Of a stretch of DNA of 37,932 nt, positions 5,619 to 21,497 are shown piece after piece. The position numbers and the translations under genes are program-made. The number at the start of each line of letters is the position of its first letter. Position 1 is the stretch's first letter. The DNA lies in IMG/VR virus record IMGVR_UViG_3300035670_000627, positions 1-37,932 of that record. One strand, written 5' to 3'. Source of the DNA: a virus. The notes beneath the pieces were generated by a model. The model saw only the letters and a list, made by a program, of their open reading frames with translations. It had not been told where the DNA came from and searched no databases.

Positions 5619-7370
5619 TTACGCTGGGAAAGTTGCACCAGTTGGTAAGATGCTGAAGTCGAGATAGATGAATTCGGCTGTCTTAGTAGGCTGAATGAAG
5701 ATCTGTCCAATTAGCTGGTTTCTATCAATTACGTCTGCAGTATTGTTGGAATCATCCATGATTACTCTAAACGCGTATAAACCTTGTCTCTGTTGTACTG
5801 ACTCTAGATATGGGTTTACAATTGATAAGAAGTTGTTTCTAGTTGTTAAAGTATTTTGTTCAAACACTAAGTTGTTAGCAACTTGAGAAATAAATCCTTT
5901 AAGTTGAATTAACAATCTACGAACATTTACTCTATCAAGAGCAGATGACTTAGTTTGTAATGTTTTCTGACCGTATACTACAACTCCAGTTCCTGGGAAT
6001 GTAGCGATTGGGTTTACTTTACCTGTGTATAAGGTATCACGAGTTGCTTGAGAGAGTTTTTGTTCGGCTCTAATTACTTGGCCTAAACCACCTCTGTTAA
6101 TACCTGCTGGAGCGAACCATGGATCAGCTGCTCTATCATTAAAGGCATAAACACCTGGGATCAAGGCTGAAGCTGGTACCCAAACATTCTTACCTGTTTC
6201 TGGGTCAAGTACTTGACACCATGGCCAGTAAGTTGCAGCGTATGAAGTGTCTTCAGAGGCAGCTTGTGTTATTACAGCTCCTACACTTGAACCATACCCA
6301 ACCATGTCTGGAATGTAGATATTATCTCCTCTATTTTGAGTATTTGTAATGATACTTGTGATAGGTGAAGTATGAGTAGCAAAAGCATTTATTAGACCTG
6401 GGGTTACTAATAAGTTAAATCTGTAGTCATCTTGGTTAGATAACAAGTTGATCATGCTAGTGTAGTCACTACCACTTAAACCTTGAGTATCTGTATTACT
6501 AATTGCCTCATAGTAAGCATTACCTCCACTAGCTACAGGATCACCTGTTGCGGCTGTAAATGAACCACTAGCATTCACTGGAAGTGAACTTGTATAAGCT
6601 GATTTAGCTACACCATTATTATTAAAGTAATTTGGAGTAGGAGTTTCAACTGATTTTACTCTAATGTAATTTGATCTGTTAGCGTAAGAACCTGAAGTGG
6701 TAAGCTGGATAGTTGATGGGTTGTAGTTTTGAGTTTGATCACCAATCACAGCGGCGATAAAGTTTGGTTGAGTTGGGTCTAATGATAAGTTAGTCCAAGT
6801 CTCTAAAACAATCTGGCTGTTTGTAGTGTCATTACCTTGTCTTACTAATAGAGTAAATGTACCTGAAGAGGTATTAGCATTTTGAATTGACCATCTAATA
6901 TTATCTGAGGTACCATTAACTAAAGCTCCTGCTGAATCAAGTGAGCTTGAGCTGTTCATGATAACACCCTCAGAAATGGTTTCTAAGATAAAGGCTTCAT
7001 CACCATCAGCGTTAAGAATTGATACACCAGCACCAGCACCTCCAGTTACAGAAGCTGTAGCTGTAGTAGCAGGAGCCCAAGTTGCAGAAGCACTTACTAC
7101 TCTAGCAACTAGAAGTGAAGTACCACCATTTATGAAGTAATTGTAAGCTGTTAGTGCGGTTAAGAATGAGTATGAATCACCACCACTAATGAAAGCACCA
7201 CCAAACTTATTGATATAATCTGAATAAGTGGTTACAATAGTTGGGATTTCAACTGGTCCTTTTGTTGTTGGGCCGATGATAGCTGCTCCAACTGTAGCTG
7301 GAGTTTGAGTTAAAAATGACTGATCGTTTTCTCTTGCTAAAACACCAGGTGATACTAAAGTTTCTGCCAT
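5619..7370 (-). CDS. 18: Contractile tail sheath protein (T4 gp18-like)
   Basis: The product is a 583-residue sheath subunit; T4 gp18 has 659. The N-terminus (ETLVSPGVLARENDQSF, then ATVGAAIIGPTTKGPVEIPT) is the conserved opening of phage sheath proteins. The C-terminal third carries the conserved core: NVWVPASALIPGVYAFND, the KLSQATRDTLYTGKVNPIATF region and GVVVYGQKTLQ, then RLLIQLKGFISQVANNLVFEQN and the closing IYLDFSILPTGATFPA. The middle (about 90-330) is Ser/Thr/Asn-rich and is probably the variable surface domain. It is the first gene after the glycosylation operon, preceded by a hairpin and a full TATTTAT element, and pairs with the tube gene just downstream. Confidence 0.93.
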   Translation of the reverse strand: MAETLVSPGVLARENDQSFLTQTPATVGAAIIGPTTKGPVEIPTIVTTYSDYINKFGGAFISGGDSYSFLTALTAYNYFINGGTSLLVARVVSASATWAPATTATASVTGGAGAGVSILNADGDEAFILETISEGVIMNSSSSLDSAGALVNGTSDNIRWSIQNANTSSGTFTLLVRQGNDTTNSQIVLETWTNLSLDPTQPNFIAAVIGDQTQNYNPSTIQLTTSGSYANRSNYIRVKSVETPTPNYFNNNGVAKSAYTSSLPVNASGSFTAATGDPVASGGNAYYEAISNTDTQGLSGSDYTSMINLLSNQDDYRFNLLVTPGLINAFATHTSPITSIITNTQNRGDNIYIPDMVGYGSSVGAVITQAASEDTSYAATYWPWCQVLDPETGKNVWVPASALIPGVYAFNDRAADPWFAPAGINRGGLGQVIRAEQKLSQATRDTLYTGKVNPIATFPGTGVVVYGQKTLQTKSSALDRVNVRRLLIQLKGFISQVANNLVFEQNTLTTRNNFLSIVNPYLESVQQRQGLYAFRVIMDDSNNTADVIDRNQLIGQIFIQPTKTAEFIYLDFSILPTGATFPA

Positions 7371-7464: not shown

Positions 7465-8664
7465 TTAATAAATATTAAGTACTTTTTCTAGAGATTTTAT
7501 CACCATCTCTGGAGTGATTGATTTAGTACATTCAAAATGTCTTGGTGTATCTTTATGCTCGGGGCACCATTCCCAATCTCCTGGGTTGAGCCATTCACGG
7601 TTAAAACATCCTGAACAAAGTCCTGTCGGAGTATAAATACGTTCACAGTCTTCAAACTCACTATATGGTTCTGAAAATCCTGAAATGAGAATTGTTTTTT
7701 GTCCAACAGCCCATGATACCCAACTTAATCCGCTACCTACACCTATAAAAGCTTCAGCGTGAGATATATCACTCATTCGATCTTCTAAAGGTAATTTACC
7801 AGTTTTATTAATAACATTTTTAAGTGTACCACCTAGTTTTGAATCATGCCATCCGTCTCCTAATGGTTCACTTGTTATCATAAGGGTTTTATATCCTTTT
7901 TCTTTTAACCAATCAATAACACGTTGCCATCCACCTGGGTAATTCCAATATTTGGCATGAGCTGAAGCGTGAGGGGCTATTACAACATATTTTTCTTTTA
8001 CAGGACGAGTTTTTTTATTAAAGAATACTTTAGGTTTAGTTTCAATATATTCTAATCCTAAAATATCAGATGAGGCTTTACCTAAAGGAATATTTTTAAA
8101 TTCAGTAACATTCCTATCTAGATTAACTTTATGATTTTCATCATAAAACCACCCAACATTATACATAGCATATAAATCATTTACTTGGGTTCCAGGTTTT
8201 ACAAATTTAATTTCTGGGTAAGTTTTAATAAACCACTCATTATGAAATGTAGAGGCTACCATTTCACAATTATACTTTTTCCTAAATTCATCTATAAAAG
8301 GAAACCAAGCTAAAGTATCACCTACAGCTGTAGAGTCCATATGAATATAAACTTTTTTACCTACAACATCATACTTATGCTCAAAAACTAAATCATTAGT
8401 TTCTAAATCAAACACTTGAATTAACCAATCTGTAAAATACTGGCGATTGGTTCTAGTCCACATATTATTTGAAATGATGGATTCATGAACTATTTCATTT
8501 GTTTTTTGGTCTGTAAATAAAACTTTATATTGTCTTTCTTCAGGACCTAATACTTCTAAAAAAGCACCTTCAACAAAATGGAACATAAATCTATTTTGTG
8601 GTTCCTGAAAGGGTAAATATAATGGTTTTACATTATCATATATTTTTTTCAAAACTTTTTTCAT
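7465..8664 (-). CDS. Protein O-heptosyltransferase, Aah/TibC (BAHT) family
   Basis: This 399-residue enzyme is in the GT9-like bacterial autotransporter heptosyltransferase family. In bacteria these transfer ADP-heptose to serines on the strand-loop-strand repeats of adhesins. The whole length fits: an N-terminal beta domain (about 15-100), AVGDTLAWFPF (113-123), KYWNYPGGW (238-246), GVGSGLSWVSWA (308-319), ISGFSEP (327-333), then the family's metal finger with cysteines 350, 353, 367 and 379 and the closing FECTKSITPEMV. It overlaps the upstream GT4 gene by 4 nt (ATGA) and ends the operon. A giant Ser-rich fibre lies upstream, a plausible acceptor. The actual sugar donor cannot be read from the sequence. 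LPS modification is the main alternative. Confidence 0.88.
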   Translation of the reverse strand: MKKVLKKIYDNVKPLYLPFQEPQNRFMFHFVEGAFLEVLGPEERQYKVLFTDQKTNEIVHESIISNNMWTRTNRQYFTDWLIQVFDLETNDLVFEHKYDVVGKKVYIHMDSTAVGDTLAWFPFIDEFRKKYNCEMVASTFHNEWFIKTYPEIKFVKPGTQVNDLYAMYNVGWFYDENHKVNLDRNVTEFKNIPLGKASSDILGLEYIETKPKVFFNKKTRPVKEKYVVIAPHASAHAKYWNYPGGWQRVIDWLKEKGYKTLMITSEPLGDGWHDSKLGGTLKNVINKTGKLPLEDRMSDISHAEAFIGVGSGLSWVSWAVGQKTILISGFSEPYSEFEDCERIYTPTGLCSGCFNREWLNPGDWEWCPEHKDTPRHFECTKSITPEMVIKSLEKVLNIY

Positions 8665-9608
8665 ATTATTTCTTGATAAAGTTTAACTAATTCAATAGCA
8701 CGATTATACCAATCTAATTCTTTAGCTGTTTCTAAAGCCATTTCTCTATAAAGTTTATAATCCTTTATAATACTTTGTAATCCAGTATTCATCTCAAATA
8801 TATCTCGAGGTGCTCTCCAAGCACCATGAAATACAGTATTATACTCCCAGTCAGCGATTATAGGTAAACCAGCAGCAGCTGCTTCAACCATTGTTAAATT
8901 AGGATGACCTGCTTCTAACATTGTAGGGTGAATAAAAATATCATGTTGGTGATATAATTTTAATAATTCACTATTAGGAGTATCATAAACAATTTTTAAC
9001 TTAGAATAAGTTAATGTCCAAGGATTTTCATTAAAGAAATGTCTATTATTATAAGGACCGGCTACTGTAATTTCTAAATTATTTAAGGCTGCTAATCCAA
9101 TACCATAACTAAATCCTTTTCTATCAAATCCTGAATTGCCTGCTAGTCCATTATTGGCTAACATTAATAGTTTAGGCTGTTTAGGGGTTGGTTTATCTAT
9201 AGGATAAAATTCCTGATTATTAACTCCATGAGCAAAATATTGTACTTTAGGATGATCAAAATAGTCTACTAAGTATCTTGCTGGGACTAATGATAGAATA
9301 GATCCTTCTATAGCTTTAAGATTTTGTTTGTATACATGGCTATCTTTACCATGATGATAAGCATGATGGTCATGAAGTTGAAATACATAAGGTATTCCTC
9401 TTTCTTGAAGCATTAAAGCTAAATTACCAACATGACAGTGAATAATGTCAAAATCATTAGGGTTAATTTCAGTTGCAAATTTGATTTCTGACTCATGTCC
9501 TTGTTTAAGAAAATTTTGATGATATTCCCATACGATTTTTTCAATCGCACCCCAATCTTTAGGTGGAACGTCTATTCCACAGGCAGGATGTACTTGGCAA
9601 ATTCTCAT
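8661..9608 (-). CDS. GT4-family glycosyltransferase
   Basis: This 315-residue GT-B enzyme is probably retaining. The N-terminal Rossmann half starts MRICQVHPACGIDVPPKDWG, where GT4 proteins have a glycine-rich acceptor loop, and includes FDIIHCHVGN (53-62). The C-terminal donor half has DRKGF (162-166), ITVAGP (180-185) and the acidic pair E232 and E242 in LEAGHPNLTMVEAAAAGLPI. The two glutamates are two residues further apart than the classic E-x7-E. It overlaps genes on both sides by 4 nt, so translation is coupled within the four-gene operon. It likely adds a sugar to the glycan built by this module. Donor and acceptor are unknown. Confidence 0.82.
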   Translation of the reverse strand: MRICQVHPACGIDVPPKDWGAIEKIVWEYHQNFLKQGHESEIKFATEINPNDFDIIHCHVGNLALMLQERGIPYVFQLHDHHAYHHGKDSHVYKQNLKAIEGSILSLVPARYLVDYFDHPKVQYFAHGVNNQEFYPIDKPTPKQPKLLMLANNGLAGNSGFDRKGFSYGIGLAALNNLEITVAGPYNNRHFFNENPWTLTYSKLKIVYDTPNSELLKLYHQHDIFIHPTMLEAGHPNLTMVEAAAAGLPIIADWEYNTVFHGAWRAPRDIFEMNTGLQSIIKDYKLYREMALETAKELDWYNRAIELVKLYQEII

Positions 9609-10195
9609 AGATTTTTTTTAGCGTATATCATCCCTAGATTAGTGTTTTTATGGATGTGTTCAAAATTTATATTATATCCGTTTTGACTAAGTTTTTCTAA
9701 TATTTGAAGAATTTGATATCCATTATTATAAATGTCATGTACTTCTATAGCATACTGTTTAACTCGGGTTAAGATATCATCAGGCATGTTCAATAACAAG
9801 GGGTATTCCCAAAACTCAATATCAATTTTAGCAAAATCAACTGTGTCTAAATTAAACATACTGAATATAGTTTGGAAATTGAAGTGTTCAAATTCAAACC
9901 TATCACTGATATAACCTTTGATTAAGGAGGCATTTGAGTAATTTTGTAGATTTAATTTTAAAAGTTCAAATATAGATGGATCACATTCAAAAGAATAAAC
10001 ATGTTGTGCTCCTTTATCCAAAGCAAACTTACTAAATATACCTACATTAGCACCACAATCTAAAACTATATCTCCTTCCTTAATATCAAGACCATATCTA
10101 GTATACTCTTGATCTTCCCAAATTTCTTTTTTAAGACCTAATATCCAGTTAGGATCTTGATCTTCAAAGTAATAAAAATCATCAACTAAAATCAT
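9605..10195 (-). CDS. FkbM-family SAM-dependent methyltransferase
   Basis: This is a 196-residue Rossmann-fold methyltransferase. SAM motif I is VLDCGANVGIFSKFA (44-58), the acidic residue binding the ribose hydroxyls is E70 in YSFECDP, and the later segment VDFAKIDIEFWEYPLL matches the FkbM pattern of a strand followed by an acidic residue and E-x-x-E/W. Members O-methylate sugars in glycans, glycolipids and antibiotics. Located between two glycosyltransferase genes with 4-nt overlaps on each side, it most likely methylates a sugar in the chain they make. A DNA-methylating role is unlikely, as there is no DPPY-type motif. Confidence 0.82.
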   Translation of the reverse strand: MILVDDFYYFEDQDPNWILGLKKEIWEDQEYTRYGLDIKEGDIVLDCGANVGIFSKFALDKGAQHVYSFECDPSIFELLKLNLQNYSNASLIKGYISDRFEFEHFNFQTIFSMFNLDTVDFAKIDIEFWEYPLLLNMPDDILTRVKQYAIEVHDIYNNGYQILQILEKLSQNGYNINFEHIHKNTNLGMIYAKKNL

Positions 10196-12834
10196 TCTGA
10201 GGCATATATTAAGGGGCTATTCTCATCTGTACCTTTAAATTCTTGTTCTACAATTGAGAATCCTGGAAGGTGTTTAGTATAGATTTTTTCAGCTGTTCCT
10301 ATTCTAAGTTTAGCTACATTACAAACCCATAAATCAAAAGCATCCCAAGGAGTAGTTTCAAGTAAATAAGCTACATCAGCTACTTTATTAGAATTTATTA
10401 GATAGGATTGAGCTGGGACAAATGGGGTAACATCAGTATAAATGTCTTCTATTTTAGGACCACTTAAATTTCTGTTTTGCCATGGATTTCCAAAACCTAT
10501 AACATCCATATCAGTTTCTTGAGCTATACGACTGAAACGTACTAATGACTTGTATAATTCGGTATAATCACTGTCTATAATAACGTCACCTTCAAAGATC
10601 AGGACATAGTCATACTCTGAATTGTCTGCGGCTAAAATGGCATTTTTATGAGCTAAATAACATCCATAATGACCTGGGGCTAGTTTATAGTATCCTGGTT
10701 TGTCTTGAACCTCAGTTGGTCGAGCACAATTTTCTGATGGAGGAGTTTCGGTCCAGATTTTATTTATTCGCTGTTCATATTTGATTCCTGTTTGTTCACA
10801 AAAATCTTTTATGTTTTCTACAGAACGAATTTCTTTAGGATTGTTTTCAGGATCAGTTACTAGGTGCATTAATTTTATTGACTTTAAATTAGTCAATTCT
10901 AATGAACCATTTCCCTCTAAATTATTAGTTGGTAATGTTTTTACCTCTAAAAGTTTTTGACTAACCAAGTCATAAATCTCAAATTTAATTTTTAAACCTG
11001 GATTGTTAGAGATGAGTTTATACCAGTCTAGTTTAGTAGTTACTTCTATAGAGTCAATAAGCTCTGTGGTATTGTCTTGGATAGTGTAAACTTTAATTAG
11101 TTTAGTTTCTTTACTATTAGAAATCCTGATATAGGGAGCTATAGTATTATTCTTATTAGTAGGAAGAACTGTATAATATTCTACTCTAGAATAATCAGCA
11201 TGGTAAAATGTATCTTCTATCTTTTTTTCAAAAATGTCTTGATCTTCATAGTAAATTTCTTTTACATCTTTAAAAGCATGGTACCATAAATTTTCTAGAC
11301 CATTTGATTCACTACCCCACAGTTGTTGTAACTTATCATATTCTAAGGCATTGTCTATTTGAGGTATAGTCTCTAAGAATGCTTTAGTTCTAACTCCCAT
11401 AAAGAAAGTATAGATAGTATCTCCTTCAGCTGCTTTATATTTACCTACAAAAGCATTTTTAAGATACATCCAGATAGAAATTTGATCTAGATAATCATTA
11501 TCTTTTAAGATATAATCATAGTTAAGTAGGTAAGCTACCTCATAACCTAAATTATCAGCTAAAGCAACTCCATTACGATAATTTGTATAGACTGTAGGAC
11601 CATGATAAATGTCATTGTCATTACCTCTTAAGTTAACATGTACTTTATATTCTGGGTATTGAGCCCAGAAGTTACTATAGTAAGTATGTTTAGTTAAAAT
11701 ATTATTTTTATCTACTACAACATAATCAGCTAAATCTACTAATTCCTCAGGTATAGGAATATGTGAGGTTAACATTACAATTTTACCTTCCTTTTTCAAA
11801 GCCTCAACACACTGTTTAGTTGTTTGAGTAATTGAATCATTTATAGGGTAAGTAGAAACTATAAAAATTTCTTTAATAGGGAGGTCATTAAGATGTGCTT
11901 TGATAAGATCACAATTTGATTTAAAATCAGTAAAATTTAAATAATTTATATTATCAAATTGATCCCAGTAATTTAAGTAAACTGGAAGGTTATAAATTAG
12001 AGTAGGTAGTTTCCATGAGGTAGCTTCTCTAATTACTAAAGGCATTGTCTCTTTATCTGTATTTGTTCCTCTAGAGGTAAACAAAAACAAATCCATTGCT
12101 TTATAGAAGTTATCTACATCTTTTCTTTCACCCCAAATATAAACATTTGAAGGCTTATTTTCCATTAATGGTTGCCAATAATGTTGAAAATTACCTGCTT
12201 GATTACCTACACAATGAAATTCATATTGAGGTAAAGCTTTAGCATATTCAAAAAATTCAGCCTGGTTTTTACGAGGTGTAAACAAACCAACATGTAAAAT
12301 ATGTTTTTTAGAAGGGTCTAATCCTAGTTCTTTTAGAGCCTCATTTCTATCAGGTCTTTCTTTATATTCAATAGGATAATAAACTATATCTTTAGGGATA
12401 AAGTTATCATATTGCTGGTTATGCCACTCTGAGATGAAGGCATAATGATCTGGGAAGAATTGTTTTTGGTCTGGGGTAAATGAGCTATCATGAGAAGTTT
12501 CGACTATAGAGTAAGTTCTATCTTGACTGTATAATTGTTTGGCAATAAATGAATCCATAAAGAATTCAGGGAATTCTTCTAAATGAATAATATCAGGAGA
12601 TATATTTTTTATTATATCAAAGATTTCACTTTTATTTTCCCCTAACTCATAAAATTTATCTTGTAATAGTTCTATAAGTTGATCTCTTTGTACTATAAAA
12701 ACTCCCCCACTATGATTAGACCATTCAATTAAATGAATATCATACTCATTAATAAGTAGTTGAATTTTTTTAAGTAGATATTGAGGTAACCCACCAGTTG
12801 ATAGGTGGGGAGTTATATATAATAACTTTTTCAT
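10192..12834 (-). CDS. Three-domain glycosyltransferase (GT4 + GT-A-like + GT25-like)
   Basis: This is an 880-residue fusion. Residues 1-320 form a GT4 domain: STGG (12-15), HVGLFTPRKNQ (181-191), GERKDV (235-240) and an E-x7-E pair at E262/E270. Residues about 322-545 begin with IFIVSTYPINDS and look like a second nucleotide-sugar domain of the kind seen in large-virus and phage glycosyltransferases; I cannot name its family. Residues about 546-640 are beta-rich. Residues about 650-870 resemble GT25 (LPS-type galactosyltransferases): GHYGCYLAHK (721-730), IFEGD (746-750) in place of the usual EDD, AQSYLIN and PWDAFDLWV. It heads the glycosylation operon and overlaps the FkbM gene by 4 nt. 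One polypeptide could add two or three sugars in order. Confidence 0.8.
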   Translation of the reverse strand: MKKLLYITPHLSTGGLPQYLLKKIQLLINEYDIHLIEWSNHSGGVFIVQRDQLIELLQDKFYELGENKSEIFDIIKNISPDIIHLEEFPEFFMDSFIAKQLYSQDRTYSIVETSHDSSFTPDQKQFFPDHYAFISEWHNQQYDNFIPKDIVYYPIEYKERPDRNEALKELGLDPSKKHILHVGLFTPRKNQAEFFEYAKALPQYEFHCVGNQAGNFQHYWQPLMENKPSNVYIWGERKDVDNFYKAMDLFLFTSRGTNTDKETMPLVIREATSWKLPTLIYNLPVYLNYWDQFDNINYLNFTDFKSNCDLIKAHLNDLPIKEIFIVSTYPINDSITQTTKQCVEALKKEGKIVMLTSHIPIPEELVDLADYVVVDKNNILTKHTYYSNFWAQYPEYKVHVNLRGNDNDIYHGPTVYTNYRNGVALADNLGYEVAYLLNYDYILKDNDYLDQISIWMYLKNAFVGKYKAAEGDTIYTFFMGVRTKAFLETIPQIDNALEYDKLQQLWGSESNGLENLWYHAFKDVKEIYYEDQDIFEKKIEDTFYHADYSRVEYYTVLPTNKNNTIAPYIRISNSKETKLIKVYTIQDNTTELIDSIEVTTKLDWYKLISNNPGLKIKFEIYDLVSQKLLEVKTLPTNNLEGNGSLELTNLKSIKLMHLVTDPENNPKEIRSVENIKDFCEQTGIKYEQRINKIWTETPPSENCARPTEVQDKPGYYKLAPGHYGCYLAHKNAILAADNSEYDYVLIFEGDVIIDSDYTELYKSLVRFSRIAQETDMDVIGFGNPWQNRNLSGPKIEDIYTDVTPFVPAQSYLINSNKVADVAYLLETTPWDAFDLWVCNVAKLRIGTAEKIYTKHLPGFSIVEQEFKGTDENSPLIYASE

Positions 12835-12848
12835 TAATAACTAATTTA

Positions 12849-13097
12849 TTATTCTATGACTATCTCTCCTGTGTCTAGATTAATTTTACCTGAACCATAT
12901 TTGTCAGTTAGTTCTTTTGCAACTGTGGTTTCTTCAATTAATAATTCATCATAAAATTCTTTAGCTTTATTTTCTCTTTCTTTAAGATTAAATTTAACTA
13001 ATTCTATTTGACCTAATTCATTAATTAAGACCTCTTTTTTTTGTTGAAGAGTAGTTATTTGGGTAATTTCTTCTTCAGTTAATTTTTTAGTTTCCAT
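12849..13097 (-). CDS. Small coiled-coil protein (82 aa)
   Basis: This is an 82-residue, highly charged protein. Residues about 5-60 form a predicted coiled coil (EEITQITTLQQKKEVLINEL...), followed by a conserved-looking tail KYGSGKINLDTGEIVIE. Proteins of this form are common next to structural genes in marine T4-type phages, where they stay uncharacterised. It has no signal or membrane segment. It ends 14 nt before the three-domain glycosyltransferase start and may be co-transcribed with it. The function is unknown. Confidence 0.7.
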   Translation of the reverse strand: METKKLTEEEITQITTLQQKKEVLINELGQIELVKFNLKERENKAKEFYDELLIEETTVAKELTDKYGSGKINLDTGEIVIE

Positions 13098-13156
13098 ATA
13101 ACTGTTTTATAATAGATTGTTTAATAATATAATAACTCTTTTTTAATAGTCCAAGT

Positions 13157-13531
13157 CTACATTTCTATATTCCATGAAGAAGAAGGTAAGCCAAAAAGAG
13201 GAGTTAGGTTAAGTTTAATATACTCAAGAACTGTCTCAATTGTATTATCATAAGAACTAGTAGTCATAAAAGATGACTTTTGTGAGTCATAAAAATTATC
13301 CCAAGTTGTAGAGTTAAGAACAAAACTTATTCTATCTATATATTGTTGTTCACTTGTTCCATATTCAACCCAAACAATACTACTTACAGATACAGTGTGA
13401 GCTTCTTCTTCTGGGGAAGTAGGAGCATTATCATTAAATGATGTGACTTGAGGAGTAATGGTTAAAATAGAAGATGCTTGTGTTTGAGCATTATACACAA
13501 CAGCTTGATTTGATACAAGTTTATGAGACAT
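13157..13531 (-). CDS. Hypothetical protein (124 aa) in fibre module
   Basis: This 124-residue protein has a Ser/Thr-rich N-terminal part followed by an acidic patch (TSPEEEAHTVSVSSIVWVEYG) and a mixed alpha/beta C-terminus with several aromatic residues (FYDSQKSSFMTTSSYDN, LTPLFGLPSSSW). I do not recognise the family. It lies two genes downstream of the giant fibre and has its own full TATTTAT element 14 nt before the start. A fibre accessory, cap or assembly role is possible by position only. Confidence 0.65.
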   Translation of the reverse strand: MSHKLVSNQAVVYNAQTQASSILTITPQVTSFNDNAPTSPEEEAHTVSVSSIVWVEYGTSEQQYIDRISFVLNSTTWDNFYDSQKSSFMTTSSYDNTIETVLEYIKLNLTPLFGLPSSSWNIEM

Positions 13532-13533
13532 AT

Positions 13534-13692
13534 TTATTTTTTATTATAAATATTAAAACGTTTTTTTACTTCCTCATTACTTAGAACTTCTCCTTTAGAA
13601 ATTATTTCTTGAAATTCTTCTAAGGTTATCTCATAAATAGTGCCACCACTATCTTCTATTTGTTTTTTTAATTTAGGAGTTAAAGGGATCAT
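13534..13692 (-). CDS. Very small protein (52 aa) overlapping fibre stop
   Basis: An ATG at 13692 overlaps the fibre stop as ATGA (4 nt), and the frame runs 52 codons to TAA at 13534, 2 nt before the next start. The protein begins MIPLTPKLKKQIEDSGG and ends KKRFNIYNKK; it is Lys/Glu-rich and probably helical in its second half. Overlap-coupled start, codon use like the neighbours, and a frame filling the whole gap make it likely to be real. The last codons coincide with the TATTTAT element of the next gene. Its function is unknown; it may be a fibre-coupled regulator or chaperone. Confidence 0.65.
   Translation of the reverse strand: MIPLTPKLKKQIEDSGGTIYEITLEEFQEIISKGEVLSNEEVKKRFNIYNKK
13546..13552 (-). 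promoter_or_regulatory. TATTTAT leader element, 13531 gene
   Basis: The coding strand reads TTTTAATATTTATAATAAAA, with a 14-nt spacer to the ATG at 13531. It is embedded in the last codons (Phe-Asn-Ile-Tyr-Asn) of the 52-aa frame. Confidence 0.6.
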
Positions 13693-16600
13693 GTTTGATA
13701 CATTGGAATTGCAAATACAGCGTTATTAACTCTAACAGCTAACCATTTATCAGGAGTACCTAATACATCATTATCTTCTATATTACTATAAATACTATTA
13801 ACTAAATATTCACCAGTAGGAATATAAGCATTTCCAAAGGATGAAGTATGGAATAATTCTATACCTGTATATCCTATATTACCTACTGATAGATAGTTTG
13901 AAGAGCTAACAAATAAAGCATTACGGTTAGTACTACCTGTATCATTTAAACGGTATGAGAAGTTTGGATCATTAGGTCCACGTAAAGAGATTGAACCTGA
14001 GAATACCATAAATTTATGGTTGTGGAAAGTCGGATGAGCTCCTAAACCAACTGTTACAGCTCCTGACCGAGAAACAAAGAGTATATTATTAACTGTAGCA
14101 CTATCAATTTGAAGGGCTATTTGTTCACTAGTGTTTATATGAAATGCACCTGTTGGATTTACCTTAGTAATACCTACTCTAGAACCTGTTAATGCTAATG
14201 TAGAACCACCTGTGCCTCCATTCATATTGAATAGGATTCTTTGTGTGGATGCTTCTACTCTATAAATAAAGTCTCTAGCTGCAGCATCAGTTGAGAATGA
14301 ACCTGCTGTTGTTGCAAAAGCTGGTGAATATCCTCTTGTAGTTCCAGATTCAAGTATAGTAAAGGCTGGGTTGTTTGCACCATTTAATCCTATACCATCA
14401 GTTGAACCTGGTGAGGTTACCATAAATTCTTTAAGTGGATTGTTATTACCAACACCTACTCTACCACTACCACTTACAAAGAAAGCTGTTGAGTCAGCTG
14501 GTGATCCTACTTGAAATAAAGGAGCAGCACTTGCACCTGAAACATGAAGTAAAGCTGAAGGTTGGGCTGAAGCTGTAGTAAATGCCCCTGGGCTTATACC
14601 TACTTCATTATTAGTTAAATCATAGTAAACTAAGTTAGTACTTTGAATAGTATTAGAAGATGAAGCATAAACTGCAAAACGTGGGAATACTCCAAATACG
14701 TTACCACTAATACCTGCTGATGCAAATAAACCACTAACACCTGAAGAACCAGATGAACCTGAGGAACCACTTCTTCCTGCTGTTCCTGATGAACCAGATG
14801 AACCTGAGGAACCATTTGACCTACTTATACCACTAATTCCTGAAGAGCCAGATGATCCACTTCTTCCTGAAGAACCATTAGTTCCTGAAGAACCTGATGA
14901 TCGACCTGAGGTGCCTGAAGTACCTGAGTTACCAGATGAACCTGAAGAGGCTGAAGATCCACTTCTACCTGATGAACCGTTTGTACCAGAGGATCCAGAT
15001 GACCGACCTGAGGAACCAGATGAACCACTCCGACCTGAAGTACCAGATGAACCTGATGAGCCACTTCTACCAGAGGAACCGTTTGTTCCTGACGAACCTG
15101 ATGACCGACCTGAGGTACCTGAGGTACCAGAGTTACCAGATGAACCTGAAGAGGCTGAAGATCCGCTTCTACCAGAAGATCCGTTTGTACCAGATGAACC
15201 TGATGACCGGCCTGAGGTACCACTTGTTCCTGAATTACCAGATGAACCTGAAGAGGCACTTGAACCACTTCTACCTGATGAACCGTTTGTTCCTGAAGAA
15301 CCAGATGACCGACCTGAGGTACCTGAGGTGCCTGAGTTACCTGAAGAACCAGATGAACCACTTCTACCAGAGGAACCGTTTGTTCCTGACGAACCTGATG
15401 ACCGACCCGAGGTACCTGAGGTGCCTGAAACACCTGAAGAACCGCTAGATGCTGAAGAACCACTTCTACCTGAAGATCCATTTGTACCAGATGAACCTGA
15501 TGATCTGCCTGAGGTACCTGATGAGCCACTCCGGCCTGAAGTACCAGAAGAACCAGATGAACCAGATGAACCAGATGAGGCTGCTCTACCTGATACTCCA
15601 TCTATGCCTGTTGTACCGCTAGAACCAGAAGTTCCTGAGGTAGCAGATGAAGCTGAAGAACCACTTCGACCATTCACACCTGAAGAACCTGTTGAACCTG
15701 AGGATGCTGATGAACCACTTCTACCAGAAGCACCTGATGAACCTGTAGAACCTGATGAGGAAGAAGAACCACTACGGCCTGATAGACCTGTTGAACCTGA
15801 TGAACCTGATGAGCCTGAAGATCCTTTACTACCTGAAGAACCTGATGAACCTGAAGTAGCATTAGAACCTGAAACTCCATTAACACCATCTATACCTGAA
15901 GAACCTGATGTTCCAGATGAACCTGAAGTACCTGATAAGGCTGAGGAACCGCTCCGACCATTTGCTCCTGAAGAACCTGATGAACCTGATGAAGCTGATG
16001 AGCCACTACGGCCTGATATACCAGATGAACCTGAAGAAGCTGATGAAGCACTTGAGCCACTTCTACCTGAAGCACCTGATGAACCTGAAGAGGCGCTTGA
16101 AGCTGATGAACCACTACGACCTGATAAACCTGAAGAGCCTGAAGTTCCTGATGAACCTGAAGAGGCTGATCTTCCTGATACTCCATCTATGCCTGTTGTA
16201 CCGCTAGAACCAGAAGTTCCTGAGGTAGCAGATAAGGCTGAGGAACCGCTCCGACCATTTGCTCCTGAAGAACCTGATGAACCTGATGAAGCTGATGAGC
16301 CACTACGGCCTGATATACCAGATGAACCTGAAGAAGAACTTGAAGCTGAGGAACCACTTCTTCCAGAGGCACCAGAAGAACCAGATGAGCCTGAGGAACC
16401 TGATGACCGACCTGATGTACCTGAGGTGCCTGAGTTACCAGATGAGCCACTAGAACCAGATGATCCACTTCTACCAGAAGATCCATTAGTTCCTGAAGAG
16501 CCTGATGACTTGCCTGAGGAACCTGATGAGCCACTCCGGCCTGAAGAGCCAGAGGAACCAGATGATCCACTTCTTCCTGAAGAACCATTTGTTCCTGAGG

Positions 16601-19600
16601 AACCTGATGACCGACCTGATGTACCTGAAGTACCTGAGATTCCTGAAGAGCCAGATGAAGCAGAAGAACCAGATGAACCACTACGGCCTGAAGAACCATT
16701 TGTACCTGAAGAACCAGATGATTGACCTGAAGATCCTGAAGAACCACTACGACCTGAAGTACCTGAAGCACCAGATGAGCCAGTTGATCCTGAAGAAGCT
16801 GATGAGCCACTTCTACCTGAAGCACCTGATGAACCTGAAGAGGCGCTTGAAGCTGATGAGCCACTCCGACCTGATGTTCCACTAGCACCTGAAGAACCAG
16901 ATGAACCTGAGGATGCTGATCTACCTGATACTCCATCTATACCTGTTGTACCTGAAGAGGCGCTTGTACCTGAAGTACCTGAGTTACCAGAAGAGCCTGA
17001 TGAAGCTGAAGAACCACTTCTACCATTTGCCCCTGATGAACCACTTGAACCAGAAGAACCACTTGAACCTTTAGTACCACTTGAACCACTTGAAGATGAA
17101 GAAGAACTTGAGCCACTTCTACCAGAACTGCCTGAAGCACCTGAGGAACCTGATGATCCTGAAGAGCCTGATGACCGGCCTGAAGTGCCTGAAGAACCAC
17201 TCCGGCCTGAAGAACCAGATGATGCTGAAGATCCACTACGACCTGAGGATCCATTAGTTCCTGAAGAGCCTGATGACCGGCCTGAAGAACCTGAGGAACC
17301 ACTTCTTCCTGAGGTACCACTTGAACCTGAAGAGCCAGATGAACCTGAAGATCCTGAAGAGGCTGATCTACCTGATACTCCATCTATACCTGTAGTTCCT
17401 GAAGAAGCTGAAGTTCCTGATGTGGCTGAGACACCTGATGATCCACTCCGACCATTTGATCCACTTGTTCCGGTTGAACCACTGGATGCACTAGAACCAC
17501 TTCTACCAGATAAGCCTGATGAACCCGATGTACCTGAAGAAGCACTAGAAGCACTTGAGCCACTTCTACCAGATAGACCTGAAGAACCATTTGAACCTGA
17601 ACTTCCTGAAGAACCTGAGGTGCCTGAAGATTGGCCTGAAGTACCAGAAGAACCGCTCCGGCCTGAAGAACCTGATGAGCCTGAAGAACCACTTGAACCT
17701 CGGGTACCACTTGAACCTGATGAGGCTGAAGAAGAGCTTGAGCCGCTTCTACCAGATGTACCTGAAGCACCTGATGAGCCAGATGAACCTGAAGAACCAC
17801 TTGAAGCAGATCTACCACTTAAACCATCAATACCAGTTGTACCTGAAGAGGCGCTTGTACCTGAAGTACCTGAGTTACCAGAAGAGCCTGATGAAGCTGA
17901 AGAGCCACTACGGCCTGAAGTTCCAGCTGAACCACTTGATCCAGAAGATGCACTTGAGGCACTTGAGCCACTTCTAGCAGAGGTACCTGATGAGCCTGAA
18001 GAGCCTGATGAACCTGATGAACCACTAGTGCCACTCACACCTGAAGCACCTGAGGCACCTGATATACCAGATGAGCCTGAACTACCTGATGAAGCTGATG
18101 AACCACTCCGACCCGCAACTCCATCTATGCCTGTAGTTCCTGAAGAACCTGAAGTAGCAGATGTTCCTGAAGAACCTGAAGATGCTGAAGAAGCACTTGA
18201 ACCACTTCTGCCTGATAAACCTGATGAACCTGATGTCCCTGAAGATGCAGATGAAGCACTAGATCCACTTCTTCCTGATAAACCTGAAGAACCAGATGAA
18301 GCACTTGAAGCTGAAGAACCGCTCCGACCTGAAGAACCAGAAGTACCTGCTGAACCTGATGAAGCAGATGAGCCGGATGAGGCTGATCTACCTGCTACTC
18401 CATCTATACCTGAGGTACCTGATGAACCTGAGGTAGCTGAAGTACCACTTGAGCCTGATGATGCTGAAGAAGCACTTGAACCACTTCTTCCTGATAAACC
18501 TGAAGAACCAGATGAAGCTGATGAGCCTGAACTTCCTGAAGTGCCAGATGAAGCACTTGTAGCACTTGAGCCACTTCTACCAGACAAACCAGATGAACCT
18601 GAGGAACCAGATGAGGCAGACGATGCTGAAGTTCCGCTTGAACCTGAAGTTCCACTTGAACCAGATGAGGCTGAAGCTCCTGATACGCCATCTATACCTG
18701 AAGTTCCAGATGAACCTGAGGTAGCAGATGTTCCTGATGAACCTGAACTACCTGATGAAGCACTTGATGCTGAGGAACCACTACGACCTGATAAGCCAGA
18801 TGAACCAGTTGAACCTGAGGATGCACTTGAAGCTGAAGATCCACTACGACCTGAGGCTCCTGATGAACCTGAAGATGCACTTGAGGCTGAAGAACCACTC
18901 CGACCTGATAAGCCATTAGAGCCTGCTGAACCAGCAGAACCACTAGAAGCGGATGAACCACTTTTACCAGCGACACCATCTATACCAGTTGTACCTGATG
19001 ATCCTGAAGTACCTGAAGTACCTGAATTACCAGATGAACCACTTGAAGCGGATGAACCGCTACGACCTGATAAGCCATTAGAACCAGCAGAGCCTGATGA
19101 ACCACTTGAAGCTGATCTACCAGCAACCCCATCTATACCTGTGGTACCAGATGAACCTGAAGTACCTGATGTTCCTGATGAACCAGATGAAGCTGAAGAG
19201 CCACTTCTACCTGATAGACCTGTTGAGCCTGAAGATCCACTTGAACCTGAAGAAGCTGAAGCTCCTGCTAGACCATCTATACCTGAAGTTCCTGATGAAC
19301 CTGATGTGGCTGAAGTACCAGATGAACCTGAACTACCTGAAGATGCAGATGATCCACTTCTACCTGCTGAACCTGCTGAACCAGCTGAACCGCTTGAAGC
19401 ACTTGAGGCTGATCTTCCAGCTACACCATCAACACCTGTTGTACCTGAAGAACCTGAAGTTCCACTAGTACCAGAAGAACCAGATGAGGATGATGAACCA
19501 CTTCTACCTGCTGAACCTGTAGAACCAGATGAACCAGAACTACCACTTGAAGCTGAAGCACCTGCAATTCCATCAATACCTGTTGTACCAGATGAACCGC

Positions 19601-20585
19601 TTGTTCCTGAAGTACCAGATGTGCCTGAAGAACCAGATGAAGCTGATGAGCCGCTTCTACCAGCTGAGCCAGTAGAACCAGCAGAACCACTTGAACCTGA
19701 TGAAGCAGATCTTCCAGCTACACCATCAACACCTGCTGTACCTGAAGAGCCTGAGGTAGCTGAAGTGCCAGATGTGCCTGATGAACCAGATGAAGCAGAA
19801 GAGCCTGAAGAGCCTGAACTGCCTGAGGAACCACTTGAGCCTGAAGAAGCGGAGGCACCTGCTACTCCATCTATACCAGTTGTACCAGATGAACCTGAAG
19901 TACCAGAAGTAGCTGAGGAACCAGAGGATGCAGAAGAACCACTTCTACCTGAAGAACCAGATGAACCTGAACTACCAGAAGAGCCAGATGAAGCAGATTT
20001 ACCTGCTACACCATCAACACCTGTTGTGCCTGAAGAGCCTGAGGTAGCTGAGGTTCCTGAAGTACCCGATGAGCCACTTGAACCTGAAGTTCCTGAGGAA
20101 CCACTTGTTCCACTTGAGCCTGAAGAACTTGAAGAGCCTGATTTACCATCAACTCCATCTACACCACTTGTACCTGAACTTCCACTAGTTCCTGAAGAAC
20201 CACTTCTGCCTGATGAACCTGCAGATCCAGCTGAACCACTTGAACCAGCTGAACCACTTGAGCCTGAAGTATTTGAATTACCAGATGAACCACCATTACC
20301 AGATGAACCTGAAGTGGTTGAAGTACCTGTTGAACCTGATGAACCAGATGAACCTGAGGTGCCTGATGAATTACTAAATCCTGATGAGCCTGAAGTACCT
20401 GATGAACCAGTACCACCCGTTCCACCTTTTACATATCTTACTTGTTTAGACTGAGGATTTAAAACAAGAGTATAATCATCAGTAGAACCAGTAGGAATCG
20501 AAAAAAGATAGAGGTCATTTTTAATGACACTATCTTGTCCCGAATTTTGTTTCTTCTGATTAGTATATCTTTTATTCTCAGCCAT
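13689..20585 (-). CDS. Giant Gly-X-Ser collagen-like tail/head fibre protein
   Basis: This is a 2298-residue protein. The head (1-53) is a short basic and mixed domain, probably the virion attachment. Residues about 54-1952 have Gly at nearly every third position with Ser dominant in the other two (GSS, GTS, GRS, SSS, ASS triplets), which is collagen-like spacing but almost without proline. About 18 copies of a G(I/V)DG(V/L/I) insert punctuate the rod. The C-terminal 346 residues are a globular fibre-tip region with repeated modules such as GRVGVGNNNP and GSRVGITKVNP, common in Bacteroidota phage and surface fibres, and a final strand VFAIPMYQT. It is a likely adhesin or receptor-binding fibre, followed by a glycosylation operon. 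Whether it is attached to the tail or the head is not known. Confidence 0.88.
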   Translation of the reverse strand: MAENKRYTNQKKQNSGQDSVIKNDLYLFSIPTGSTDDYTLVLNPQSKQVRYVKGGTGGTGSSGTSGSSGFSNSSGTSGSSGSSGSTGTSTTSGSSGNGGSSGNSNTSGSSGSAGSSGSAGSAGSSGRSGSSGTSGSSGTSGVDGVDGKSGSSSSSGSSGTSGSSGTSGSSGSSGTSGTSATSGSSGTTGVDGVAGKSASSGSSGSSGSSGSSGRSGSSASSGSSATSGTSGSSGTTGIDGVAGASASSGSSGSSGSSGSSGSSASSGSSGTSGTSATSGSSGTAGVDGVAGRSASSGSSGSAGSTGSAGRSGSSASSGSSGTSGTSGTSGSSGTTGIDGIAGASASSGSSGSSGSTGSAGRSGSSSSSGSSGTSGTSGSSGTTGVDGVAGRSASSASSGSAGSAGSAGRSGSSASSGSSGSSGTSATSGSSGTSGIDGLAGASASSGSSGSSGSTGLSGRSGSSASSGSSGTSGTSGSSGTTGIDGVAGRSASSGSSGSAGSNGLSGRSGSSASSGSSGNSGTSGTSGSSGTTGIDGVAGKSGSSASSGSAGSAGSNGLSGRSGSSASSASSGSSGASGRSGSSASSASSGSTGSSGLSGRSGSSASSASSGSSGSSGTSATSGSSGTSGIDGVSGASASSGSSGTSGSSGTSASSASSGSSGSSGLSGRSGSSATSASSGTSGSSGSSASSGSSGLSGRSGSSASSASSGSSGTSATSGSSGTSGIDGVAGRSASSGSSASSGSAGTSGSSGRSGSSASSASSGSSGLSGRSGSSASSASSGTSGSSGLSGRSGSSASSASSGSSGTSATSGSSGTTGIDGVAGRSGSSASSGSSGSSGISGASGASGVSGTSGSSGSSGSSGSSGTSARSGSSASSASSGSSGSAGTSGRSGSSASSGSSGNSGTSGTSASSGTTGIDGLSGRSASSGSSGSSGSSGASGTSGRSGSSSSSASSGSSGTRGSSGSSGSSGSSGRSGSSGTSGQSSGTSGSSGSSGSNGSSGLSGRSGSSASSASSGTSGSSGLSGRSGSSASSGSTGTSGSNGRSGSSGVSATSGTSASSGTTGIDGVSGRSASSGSSGSSGSSGSSGTSGRSGSSGSSGRSSGSSGTNGSSGRSGSSASSGSSGRSGSSGTSGRSSGSSGSSGSSGASGSSGRSGSSSSSSSSGSSGTKGSSGSSGSSGSSGANGRSGSSASSGSSGNSGTSGTSASSGTTGIDGVSGRSASSGSSGSSGASGTSGRSGSSASSASSGSSGASGRSGSSASSGSTGSSGASGTSGRSGSSGSSGQSSGSSGTNGSSGRSGSSGSSASSGSSGISGTSGTSGRSSGSSGTNGSSGRSGSSGSSGSSGRSGSSGSSGKSSGSSGTNGSSGRSGSSGSSGSSGNSGTSGTSGRSSGSSGSSGSSGASGRSGSSASSSSSGSSGISGRSGSSASSGSSGSSGANGRSGSSALSATSGTSGSSGTTGIDGVSGRSASSGSSGTSGSSGLSGRSGSSASSASSGSSGASGRSGSSASSASSGSSGISGRSGSSASSGSSGSSGANGRSGSSALSGTSGSSGTSGSSGIDGVNGVSGSNATSGSSGSSGSKGSSGSSGSSGSTGLSGRSGSSSSSGSTGSSGASGRSGSSASSGSTGSSGVNGRSGSSASSATSGTSGSSGTTGIDGVSGRAASSGSSGSSGSSGTSGRSGSSGTSGRSSGSSGTNGSSGRSGSSASSGSSGVSGTSGTSGRSSGSSGTNGSSGRSGSSGSSGNSGTSGTSGRSSGSSGTNGSSGRSGSSASSGSSGNSGTSGTSGRSSGSSGTNGSSGRSGSSASSGSSGNSGTSGTSGRSSGSSGTNGSSGRSGSSGSSGTSGRSGSSGSSGRSSGSSGTNGSSGRSGSSASSGSSGNSGTSGTSGRSSGSSGTNGSSGRSGSSGSSGISGISRSNGSSGSSGSSGTAGRSGSSGSSGSSGVSGLFASAGISGNVFGVFPRFAVYASSSNTIQSTNLVYYDLTNNEVGISPGAFTTASAQPSALLHVSGASAAPLFQVGSPADSTAFFVSGSGRVGVGNNNPLKEFMVTSPGSTDGIGLNGANNPAFTILESGTTRGYSPAFATTAGSFSTDAAARDFIYRVEASTQRILFNMNGGTGGSTLALTGSRVGITKVNPTGAFHINTSEQIALQIDSATVNNILFVSRSGAVTVGLGAHPTFHNHKFMVFSGSISLRGPNDPNFSYRLNDTGSTNRNALFVSSSNYLSVGNIGYTGIELFHTSSFGNAYIPTGEYLVNSIYSNIEDNDVLGTPDKWLAVRVNNAVFAIPMYQT
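14730..20420 (-). repeat. Degenerate 9-nt-periodic Gly-X-Ser coding repeat
   Basis: About 5.7 kb of imperfect triplet-codon repeats encode the fibre rod. Synonymous codons vary (GGT/GGA/GGC and TCA/TCT/AGT/AGC), so long exact DNA repeats are limited, although blocks such as those encoding SSGTNGSSGRSG recur about a dozen times at 14.8-16.8 kb. The low complexity leaves other frames open and could hide assembly collapse or recombination. Confidence 0.85.
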
Positions 20586-20642: not shown

Positions 20643-21497
20643 TTACTTAGGCAACTTTGATACAATTTCTGTGGAGAAGATTGCCTTTGTTTTATCAAAG
20701 TACTTATTTATGGCTGATAAATCTTTTTGTGGTACCTCAGGTGCTATCTGTCCATATAAAGTCAGGTTAAAATTGGCTTTAACCGACCTAAGGCTGTCTT
20801 GCACTAATTCTGTGGGTGTTTGGATTGAATTGATACTAACACGGAATTTATAACGTTCTGGGTCTCCCCAGTAAGTATCTGAGGCATAATTTATGGCTTC
20901 AACTATCTTGTTTAGTTGGTCTACATAGTAAGTAGATACAATACAAGAGTAAGTTACATTAACAAAATCAGGCATAACCACCGCGTAATATTCTTTTTGT
21001 GGTTTAACACCATTTAAAACATCAAAACTGTTATAAGCATTTCGAGCTGTATATCTTTTTTCAAAGATTTGATAGTTGTTAGGAGTGTTAGCATCTAATT
21101 TGTTACCAAAACTTCTAACTTTTTCTATACTATCTCTTTTAAATACAATTAGAGGAAGCATTATTGCTCCATTCTTATCTTTATAGTATCCATCACGTTG
21201 AACTGATTTCCATCTTTCAGGGGAACCATAGATAACAGGGACCTCTATTCTTTCTCCATTTTGTAAGACATAAGGCTTGATTATATTTTTCATGTAATAC
21301 AATACTGCCTCATCTATGTCTTTGATACCAATAGAAAAGAGTTTAGCATCATCTCCTTCCCAAGATATTTTTGTGCCTCTATTTTTATCAGTTGGAATGG
21401 CTGCATTAGGATTCCCATACTGAGGGTAAGTAGGTATATGCTGCTCCTCAGATAATTGTCTTTGTGTTTTAGGGACGGGTTTTCTATAGTTTGCCAT
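20643..21497 (-). CDS. Tail completion / sheath terminator-like protein (gp15 position)
   Basis: This 284-residue soluble protein contains IKDIDEAVLYYMKNIIKPYV and VPVIYGSPERWKSVQRDGYY, then GAIMLPLIVFKRDSIEK, a pattern I associate with a conserved structural protein of marine T4-type phages. A C-terminal beta region ends in SVKANFNLTLYGQIAPE. It directly follows the gp14-like neck gene (the start ATG shares bases with the preceding stop region) and precedes the giant fibre. By order (13-14-15) it is the best candidate for tail terminator gp15, but the sequence alone does not prove this. A gp3-like role is the alternative. Confidence 0.6.
   Translation of the reverse strand: MANYRKPVPKTQRQLSEEQHIPTYPQYGNPNAAIPTDKNRGTKISWEGDDAKLFSIGIKDIDEAVLYYMKNIIKPYVLQNGERIEVPVIYGSPERWKSVQRDGYYKDKNGAIMLPLIVFKRDSIEKVRSFGNKLDANTPNNYQIFEKRYTARNAYNSFDVLNGVKPQKEYYAVVMPDFVNVTYSCIVSTYYVDQLNKIVEAINYASDTYWGDPERYKFRVSINSIQTPTELVQDSLRSVKANFNLTLYGQIAPEVPQKDLSAINKYFDKTKAIFSTEIVSKLPK

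Follow-up and report, generated by a model that had tools for sequence, protein, structure and literature searches.

A phage-borne TibC-like enzyme cassette that very likely glycosylates the phage's own collagen-like fibre

In bacteria, the O-glycosyltransferases TibC and AAH modify serine and not threonine, and in TibC a catalytic base (Asp110), a stereoselectivity residue (Pro300) and an iron finger have been assigned (PMC4358343). Among viruses, mimivirus L230 is the precedent for viral glycosylation of viral collagen-like proteins, with a chemistry that combines hydroxylation and a collagen glycosyltransferase (PMC9614988). TibC-type enzymes have been described before, and so have the glycosylation of phage virions and that of viral collagens; for a TibC-type enzyme combined with phage collagen glycosylation we found no earlier description in the open-access literature, subscription papers lying outside the search. 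Here we analyse the 37.9-kb virus record IMGVR_UViG_3300035670_000627 (37,932 nucleotides, called the window when its whole length is meant), in which a glycosyltransferase cassette containing a TibC-like enzyme (7465-12834) lies close to the gene of a giant collagen-like fibre (Table 1). Judged from sequence, the cassette very likely glycosylates the phage's own fibre, with the TibC-like enzyme acting on serine. An initial annotation of this DNA had already proposed that the phage glycosylates its own Ser-rich fibre, and the proposal is now supported by the enzyme family and by co-occurrence in several samplings. Every gene that it listed was found again at its coordinates, on the minus strand.

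The 399-aa enzyme had been placed in the bacterial autotransporter heptosyltransferase (BAHT) family, and profile searches agree along its full length. NCBIfam TIGR04414 matched residues 18-395 of 399 of its open reading frame (ORF) with 306.9 bits (cut-off 200), Pfam GT9 gave 46 bits and lipopolysaccharide (LPS) heptosyltransferase models less than 39, while the PDB structures of TibC (4rap/4rb4) were matched over residues 14 to 389 with E values of 4e-51 to 6e-51. The four cysteines singled out beforehand (350, 353, 367 and 379) align with Cys339, 342, 358 and 370 of the TibC iron finger, and the closing motif FECTKSITPEMV with FECTRLITGAQV, as had been anticipated. Asp116 is the equivalent of the catalytic base Asp110; Lys238, Trp315 and Arg296 correspond to Lys230, Trp305 and Arg286, and Thr226 of TibC is replaced by Ser234. 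Across 53 divergent phage homologues Asp116, Lys238 and Trp315 are invariant and each iron-finger cysteine is kept in 52, Arg296 being variable in distant phages, so that the phage homologues look like a functional branch of the family. Fusions are found among 100 distinct BAHT homologues, eight with a GT4 domain and nine with the N-terminal domain of an 880-aa glycosyltransferase (GT880) that also belongs to the cassette. Instead of an autotransporter, of which none was recognised in the window, the enzyme has the collagen-like fibre as its neighbour; by its sequence and catalytic residues, the window enzyme is a BAHT homologue with a putatively different acceptor class.

The fibre is, as noted earlier, mostly Gly and Ser in triplets, and its exact class is that of a proline-free collagen-like Gly-X-Y protein. 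It consists of an N-terminal anchor (residues 1-53), a Gly-X-Y repeat (54-1951) and a non-repeat C-terminal tip (1952-2298). The repeat (1,898 residues) contains 894 Ser, 534 Gly, 138 Thr, 6 Lys and no Pro; PF01391 matches 22 stretches (547 bits), and Gly has an autocorrelation of 0.76 at lag 3 (shuffles: 0.00 ± 0.02). Ala frequently stands in place of Gly (ASS) and at some points the triplets fall out of phase, so that the repeat need not form one unbroken classical triple helix; it could take another extended Gly-rich fold instead. Antisense to it there are long open frames of 604 and 1089 aa (14911-20454, plus strand), which are by-products of the repeat codons and a trap for gene callers.

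The pairing of the two genes recurs widely. We read 80 of 225 IMG/VR relatives fetched with the enzyme, and the common order was collagen gene, GT880, an FkbM methyltransferase (not always), GT4, BAHT and tail sheath; the collagen gene was present in 35 loci extending far enough, some of them near-identical. On another phage backbone (L068, L073 and L081) the four genes are kept with their order changed and the collagen gene on the opposite strand. Four of 50,697 annotated phage records scanned had a full-length BAHT homologue. In the 735-kb phage LR756501 (one of twin records) the collagen gene stands beside GT880 and a BAHT+GT4 protein, and in the cultured Microcystis phage Mel-JY01 a collagen-like ORF is one gene away from a GT4...BAHT protein. 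This Mel-JY01 ORF (L083, PP395634.1 1-3049) is unannotated, annotated ORFs occupying the opposite strand, and read across the record ends it would be 1788 aa long.

When intervals at the same site (from the 284-aa gene to the sheath) were compared, BAHT was found in none of 38 without collagen and in all four with it, two of these four having come from collagen-based sampling. This bears on the idea that the acceptor might be some other virion protein, such as the tail sheath, a tip protein or another fibre, and not the collagen repeat. The BAHT gene adjoins the sheath gene in the window clade, and in mycobacteriophages subunits of the capsid and the tail tube carry glycans (Freeman 2023, as related in PMC12619734); still, we regard such an acceptor as decidedly unlikely, since the sheath is present in the 38 intervals that have no enzyme, and since sheath adjacency is lost elsewhere (L068, L082 and many of L392-L415) where collagen adjacency is kept.

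Viral contigs were also chosen solely by DNA encoding (G[ST][ST])5, with a Ser/Thr-poor collagen motif as control, and TIGR04414 was present in 26 of 100 contigs, against 2 of 50 controls in which it exceeded its cut-off. Among contigs of at least 16 kb the enzyme was found in 23 of 78 versus 2 of 50 (Fisher p 2e-4), and in 13 of the 17 enzyme-bearing motif contigs longer than 50 kb it lay within 6 kb of the collagen ORF, with ~3.5 expected (p ~1e-6), these p-values being optimistic because the contigs are related and fragmentary. One contig (L403) was considered as a counterexample, having a Ser-poor collagen near the enzyme, and was rejected: it also has a 773-triplet Ser/Thr-rich collagen ~12 kb away. 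A scan of 84,980 cellular genomes gave two enzyme matches. One (L548) is a 17-kb contig in a Winogradskyella metagenome-assembled genome (MAG), which is probably phage, because its gene order is nearly that of the window; the other (L549), in a Rickettsiaceae MAG, has the enzyme beside a short collagen-like stretch. Flavobacterium phage immuto, tried as a test case, has no collagen-like ORF at 127-151 kb and no BAHT match, and is therefore unusable for this purpose. A lack of co-occurrence of enzyme and Gly-Ser fibre in related phages had been named as grounds for abandoning the idea, and several samplings returned the opposite; it is the recurrence of the pairing in many unrelated phages that makes glycosylation of the own fibre very likely.

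Phage glycosyltransferases near tail genes have been interpreted differently in pelagimyophages (PMC7029224), i.e., as enzymes that alter host LPS or capsule to exclude competing phages, in which case proximity to the fibre would only reflect a hypervariable host-interaction island. The GT9 and GT25 families do include LPS enzymes. However, TIGR04414 is a protein O-glycosyltransferase family (307 bits, as against at most 39 for the LPS heptosyltransferase models), its gene sits within the structural gene cluster, it accompanies the collagen gene on unrelated phage backbones and it is missing from the same site when collagen is missing, all of which makes a role on host glycans unlikely. It is barely credible that the enzymes serve to glycosylate DNA (hypermodified bases) or form a passenger cassette unlinked to the fibre: phage glycosyltransferases often modify DNA, as is generally known (PMC12619734), but no DNA-glycosyltransferase family was matched in the profile searches, and a passenger would not track collagen composition.

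Several observations weigh against glycosylation of the fibre by this enzyme. The stereoselectivity residue Pro300 of TibC is Gly310 in the window enzyme, and the acceptor serines of TibC sit on a beta-helix and not on a collagen-like chain. One locus (L010) extends beyond the GT880 homologue and has no recognised collagen ORF; the phage LR756504 has the enzyme and no collagen ORF in 41 kb; in 4 of the 17 large motif contigs the two genes are not near each other, and in L550 the collagen fragment adjoining the enzyme is Ser/Thr-poor. ADP-heptose genes are missing from most of the phages, since in 30 records there were only one HldE-type domain over the cut-off (G023) and one GmhA (LR756504); the sugar donor of the window enzyme need not be heptose. 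Finally, 33 of 49 motif contigs with at least 100 Ser/Thr-rich triplets are without BAHT (many are fragments, some are large), and some of these have other glycosyltransferases instead. The BAHT enzyme is not obligatory for Ser-rich collagens.

The rest of the cassette had been described as a coupled operon of BAHT, a GT4 enzyme, an FkbM methyltransferase and a three-domain glycosyltransferase, which is confirmed by 4-base ORF overlaps at 8661-8664, 9605-9608 and 10192-10195. It had also been placed directly downstream of the fibre; it is close by, but two small ORFs intervene, so that after the fibre come these two and then GT880, FkbM, GT4 and BAHT. The FkbM ORF belongs to its family by two profiles (TIGR01444, 55.4 bits with a cut-off of 37.7; PF05050, 37.9 with 22.7). 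Its presence varies among relatives, and therefore the methylation of the glycan coat suggested earlier would be optional. In GT880 the N-terminal GT4 domain scores 40 bits (Pfam), and GT25 (PF01755) matches the C-terminal 230 residues weakly (18-21 bits, cut-off 24), with weak matches in all six GT880 members tested (best 2e-5). AlphaFold models of GT880 are of low to moderate confidence (pLDDT 72 for the whole and 66 for the C-terminal domain) and have human COLGALT1 as best PDB fold match, other galactosyltransferases being nearly as good and the TM-scores low, with the whole protein reaching 0.30 by target and the domain ~0.5 by query; these predicted folds support a GT25-like C-terminus and do not indicate the acceptor. 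PDB profile searches with the GT25-like and GT4 ORFs gave no significant match.

Table 1. Coordinates of the cassette, the fibre and the genes bordering them in the window
Feature	Position	Strand	Remarks
Tail sheath	5619..7370	-	phrog_23; marks the cassette insertion site
399-aa TibC/AAH-type O-glycosyltransferase	7465..8664	-	BAHT, TIGR04414, GT9-like fold
315-aa GT4-like glycosyltransferase	8661..9608	-	below Pfam cut-offs; BAHT-fused in other phages
196-aa FkbM-family S-adenosylmethionine methyltransferase	9605..10195	-	TIGR01444, PF05050
880-aa three-domain glycosyltransferase (GT880)	10192..12834	-	GT4, GT-A-like middle, C-terminal GT25-like
82-aa small protein	12849..13097	-	conserved beside the tail sheath, whether relatives carry the cassette or lack it
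124-aa small protein after the fibre	13157..13531	-	in close relatives only
2298-aa collagen-like tail fibre	13689..20585	-	proposed glycan acceptor; PF01391; PHROG tail fibre/collagen-like minor tail families
284-aa conserved structural-cluster protein	20643..21497	-	upstream of the fibre; other border of the site

Starting from what is observed (family membership, catalytic residues, the operon, a collagen-like fibre and co-occurrence across unrelated phages), we infer an acceptor residue, a sugar, an order of steps, a timing and a benefit. The fibre would be glycosylated late in infection, with the TibC-like enzyme initiating O-glycosylation at the Ser hydroxyls in its Gly-Ser-Ser repeat. 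The donor may be an ADP-activated sugar from the host pool, heptose or a look-alike. GT4 and GT880 would lengthen the chain or add sugars at other positions, and FkbM, in the phages that possess it, would O-methylate the sugars. Pro-free Gly-Ser-Ser repeats are expected to form weak triple helices, and glycosylation may be one way of stiffening and solubilising them. The likely benefit would be a stiff, soluble and protease-resistant shaft made from a ~1,900-residue triplet repeat, although host binding or shielding are alternatives.

Several of the Ser-rich collagens lacking BAHT have sugar enzymes of another kind next to them. Beside collagen we found GT8-GT9 in L183, methyltransferase-GT2-GT9 in L190 and, in L188, a PKHD-type 2-oxoglutarate (2OG)-Fe(II) oxygenase with a GT4-GT25-2OG protein. 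In two other contigs heptose-7-phosphate-kinase-like genes (L205:2625-3353 and L181:12250-12978; rfaE_dom_I 112-116 bits, below cut-off) lie directly upstream of Ser/Thr-rich collagen genes. The GT4-GT25-2OG-Fe(II) oxygenase fusion is ~817 aa long (L188:5072-7522; L556-L579), and a scan for it found 25 loci, which share the tail-sheath site of the window and have a Lys/Pro collagen upstream wherever the contig reaches. Median Lys and Pro at X/Y were 0.035 and 0.11 in the collagens linked to this fusion, versus 0 and 0 in the BAHT-linked ones (Mann-Whitney U, p 1.4e-5 and 2e-5). Both arrangements coexist in L559 (3-10454), where a Ser/Thr-only collagen fragment is followed by BAHT, and then come a Lys/Pro collagen, a hydroxylase and the GT25 fusion. 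Another relative, L155/L291, has no BAHT after its Ala/Gln/Thr/Pro collagen but genes for a 2OG oxygenase, a sulfotransferase and GT2; the genes at L155:3165-9638 (sulfotransferase, 2OG-Fe(II) oxygenase, DUF6445, two GT2 and an amine-oxidase-like gene) sit between the Ser/Thr-poor collagen gene and the sheath. The modifying enzymes track the acceptor chemistry of phage collagens. We find it reasonably probable that collagen-like fibres of tailed phages are modified post-translationally by a general, modular system, with the enzyme set matched to the repeat: TibC-type, GT4 and GT25-like enzymes for Gly-Ser-Ser collagens, and 2OG-Fe(II) hydroxylases with GT4-GT25-2OG proteins for Lys/Pro collagens.

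As to the phage itself, the window is probably a fragment of a T4-like genome, with genes for terminase, portal, capsid, PhoH, neck, sheath and tube that all lie on the minus strand. The closest cultured relatives, by capsid and sheath, are immuto (54-55%) and Mel-JY01. The host, probably a marine one, is likely a member of the Flavobacteriia, because the Winogradskyella MAG contig has almost this gene order. The cassette is found on either side of the 82-aa gene depending on the phage, which suggests repeated insertion. In a related clade (L095-L097) the same site holds a hydrophobic (Gly-Ile/Leu-Ser)n fibre and no glycosyltransferase cassette.

If this is true, collagen modification extends beyond animals and giant viruses to environmental bacteriophages, where it is common and is initiated by an unexpected enzyme. 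This would account for how phages could stabilise very long Pro-free Gly-X-Y fibres, and many phage glycosyltransferases now assigned to host LPS modification would be reassigned to virion glycosylation. It would also provide a small toolbox for glycosylated recombinant collagens. The cultured phage Mel-JY01 makes the idea directly testable.

In serine-rich repeat adhesin (GtfA/GtfB) loci and in BclA-type glycosylated bacterial collagens, a glycosyltransferase operon likewise stands beside a repetitive Ser/Thr-rich filament. Those systems differ from the window in their initiating enzyme, and neither GtfA/B nor accessory secretion genes were recognised in it. The parallel with serine-rich adhesins drawn in the initial annotation stands, and, the proposed acceptor being a collagen-like Gly-X-Y fibre, collagen glycosylation (mimivirus L230, COLGALT1) is an equally apt one. 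With TibC/AAH the window enzyme shares full-length homology, the catalytic Asp, Lys and Trp, the four-Cys iron finger and a Ser-rich repetitive acceptor, here a proposed one, alongside; unlike them, enzymes of its type are phage-borne and often fused to GT4 or other glycosyltransferase domains, and the proposed acceptor is a collagen-like fibre instead of a beta-helix autotransporter. In mycobacteriophages phage glycosyltransferases similarly act on phage structural proteins, the targets being, as related in PMC12619734 (Freeman 2023), the C-termini of capsid and tail-tube proteins, whereas here the target would be a giant collagen-like fibre and the enzyme is of TibC type. A possible likeness to COLGALT1/LH3 lies in the GT25-like C-terminal domain of GT880 (weak Pfam matches, best PDB fold match). 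The substrate of L230 and LH3 is hydroxylysine, which a lysyl hydroxylase produces, while the window repeat has 6 Lys in its 1,898 residues and none of the cassette ORFs was recognised as a hydroxylase. Their type of chemistry is found in the sister system instead (L188, L558 and L559), where the GT4-GT25-2OG fusion, the PKHD-type hydroxylase and the Lys/Pro collagen are reminiscent of mimivirus L230 and LH3. With the proposed modular system, viruses of bacteria would have their own equivalent of the collagen hydroxylation and glycosylation of animals and mimivirus.

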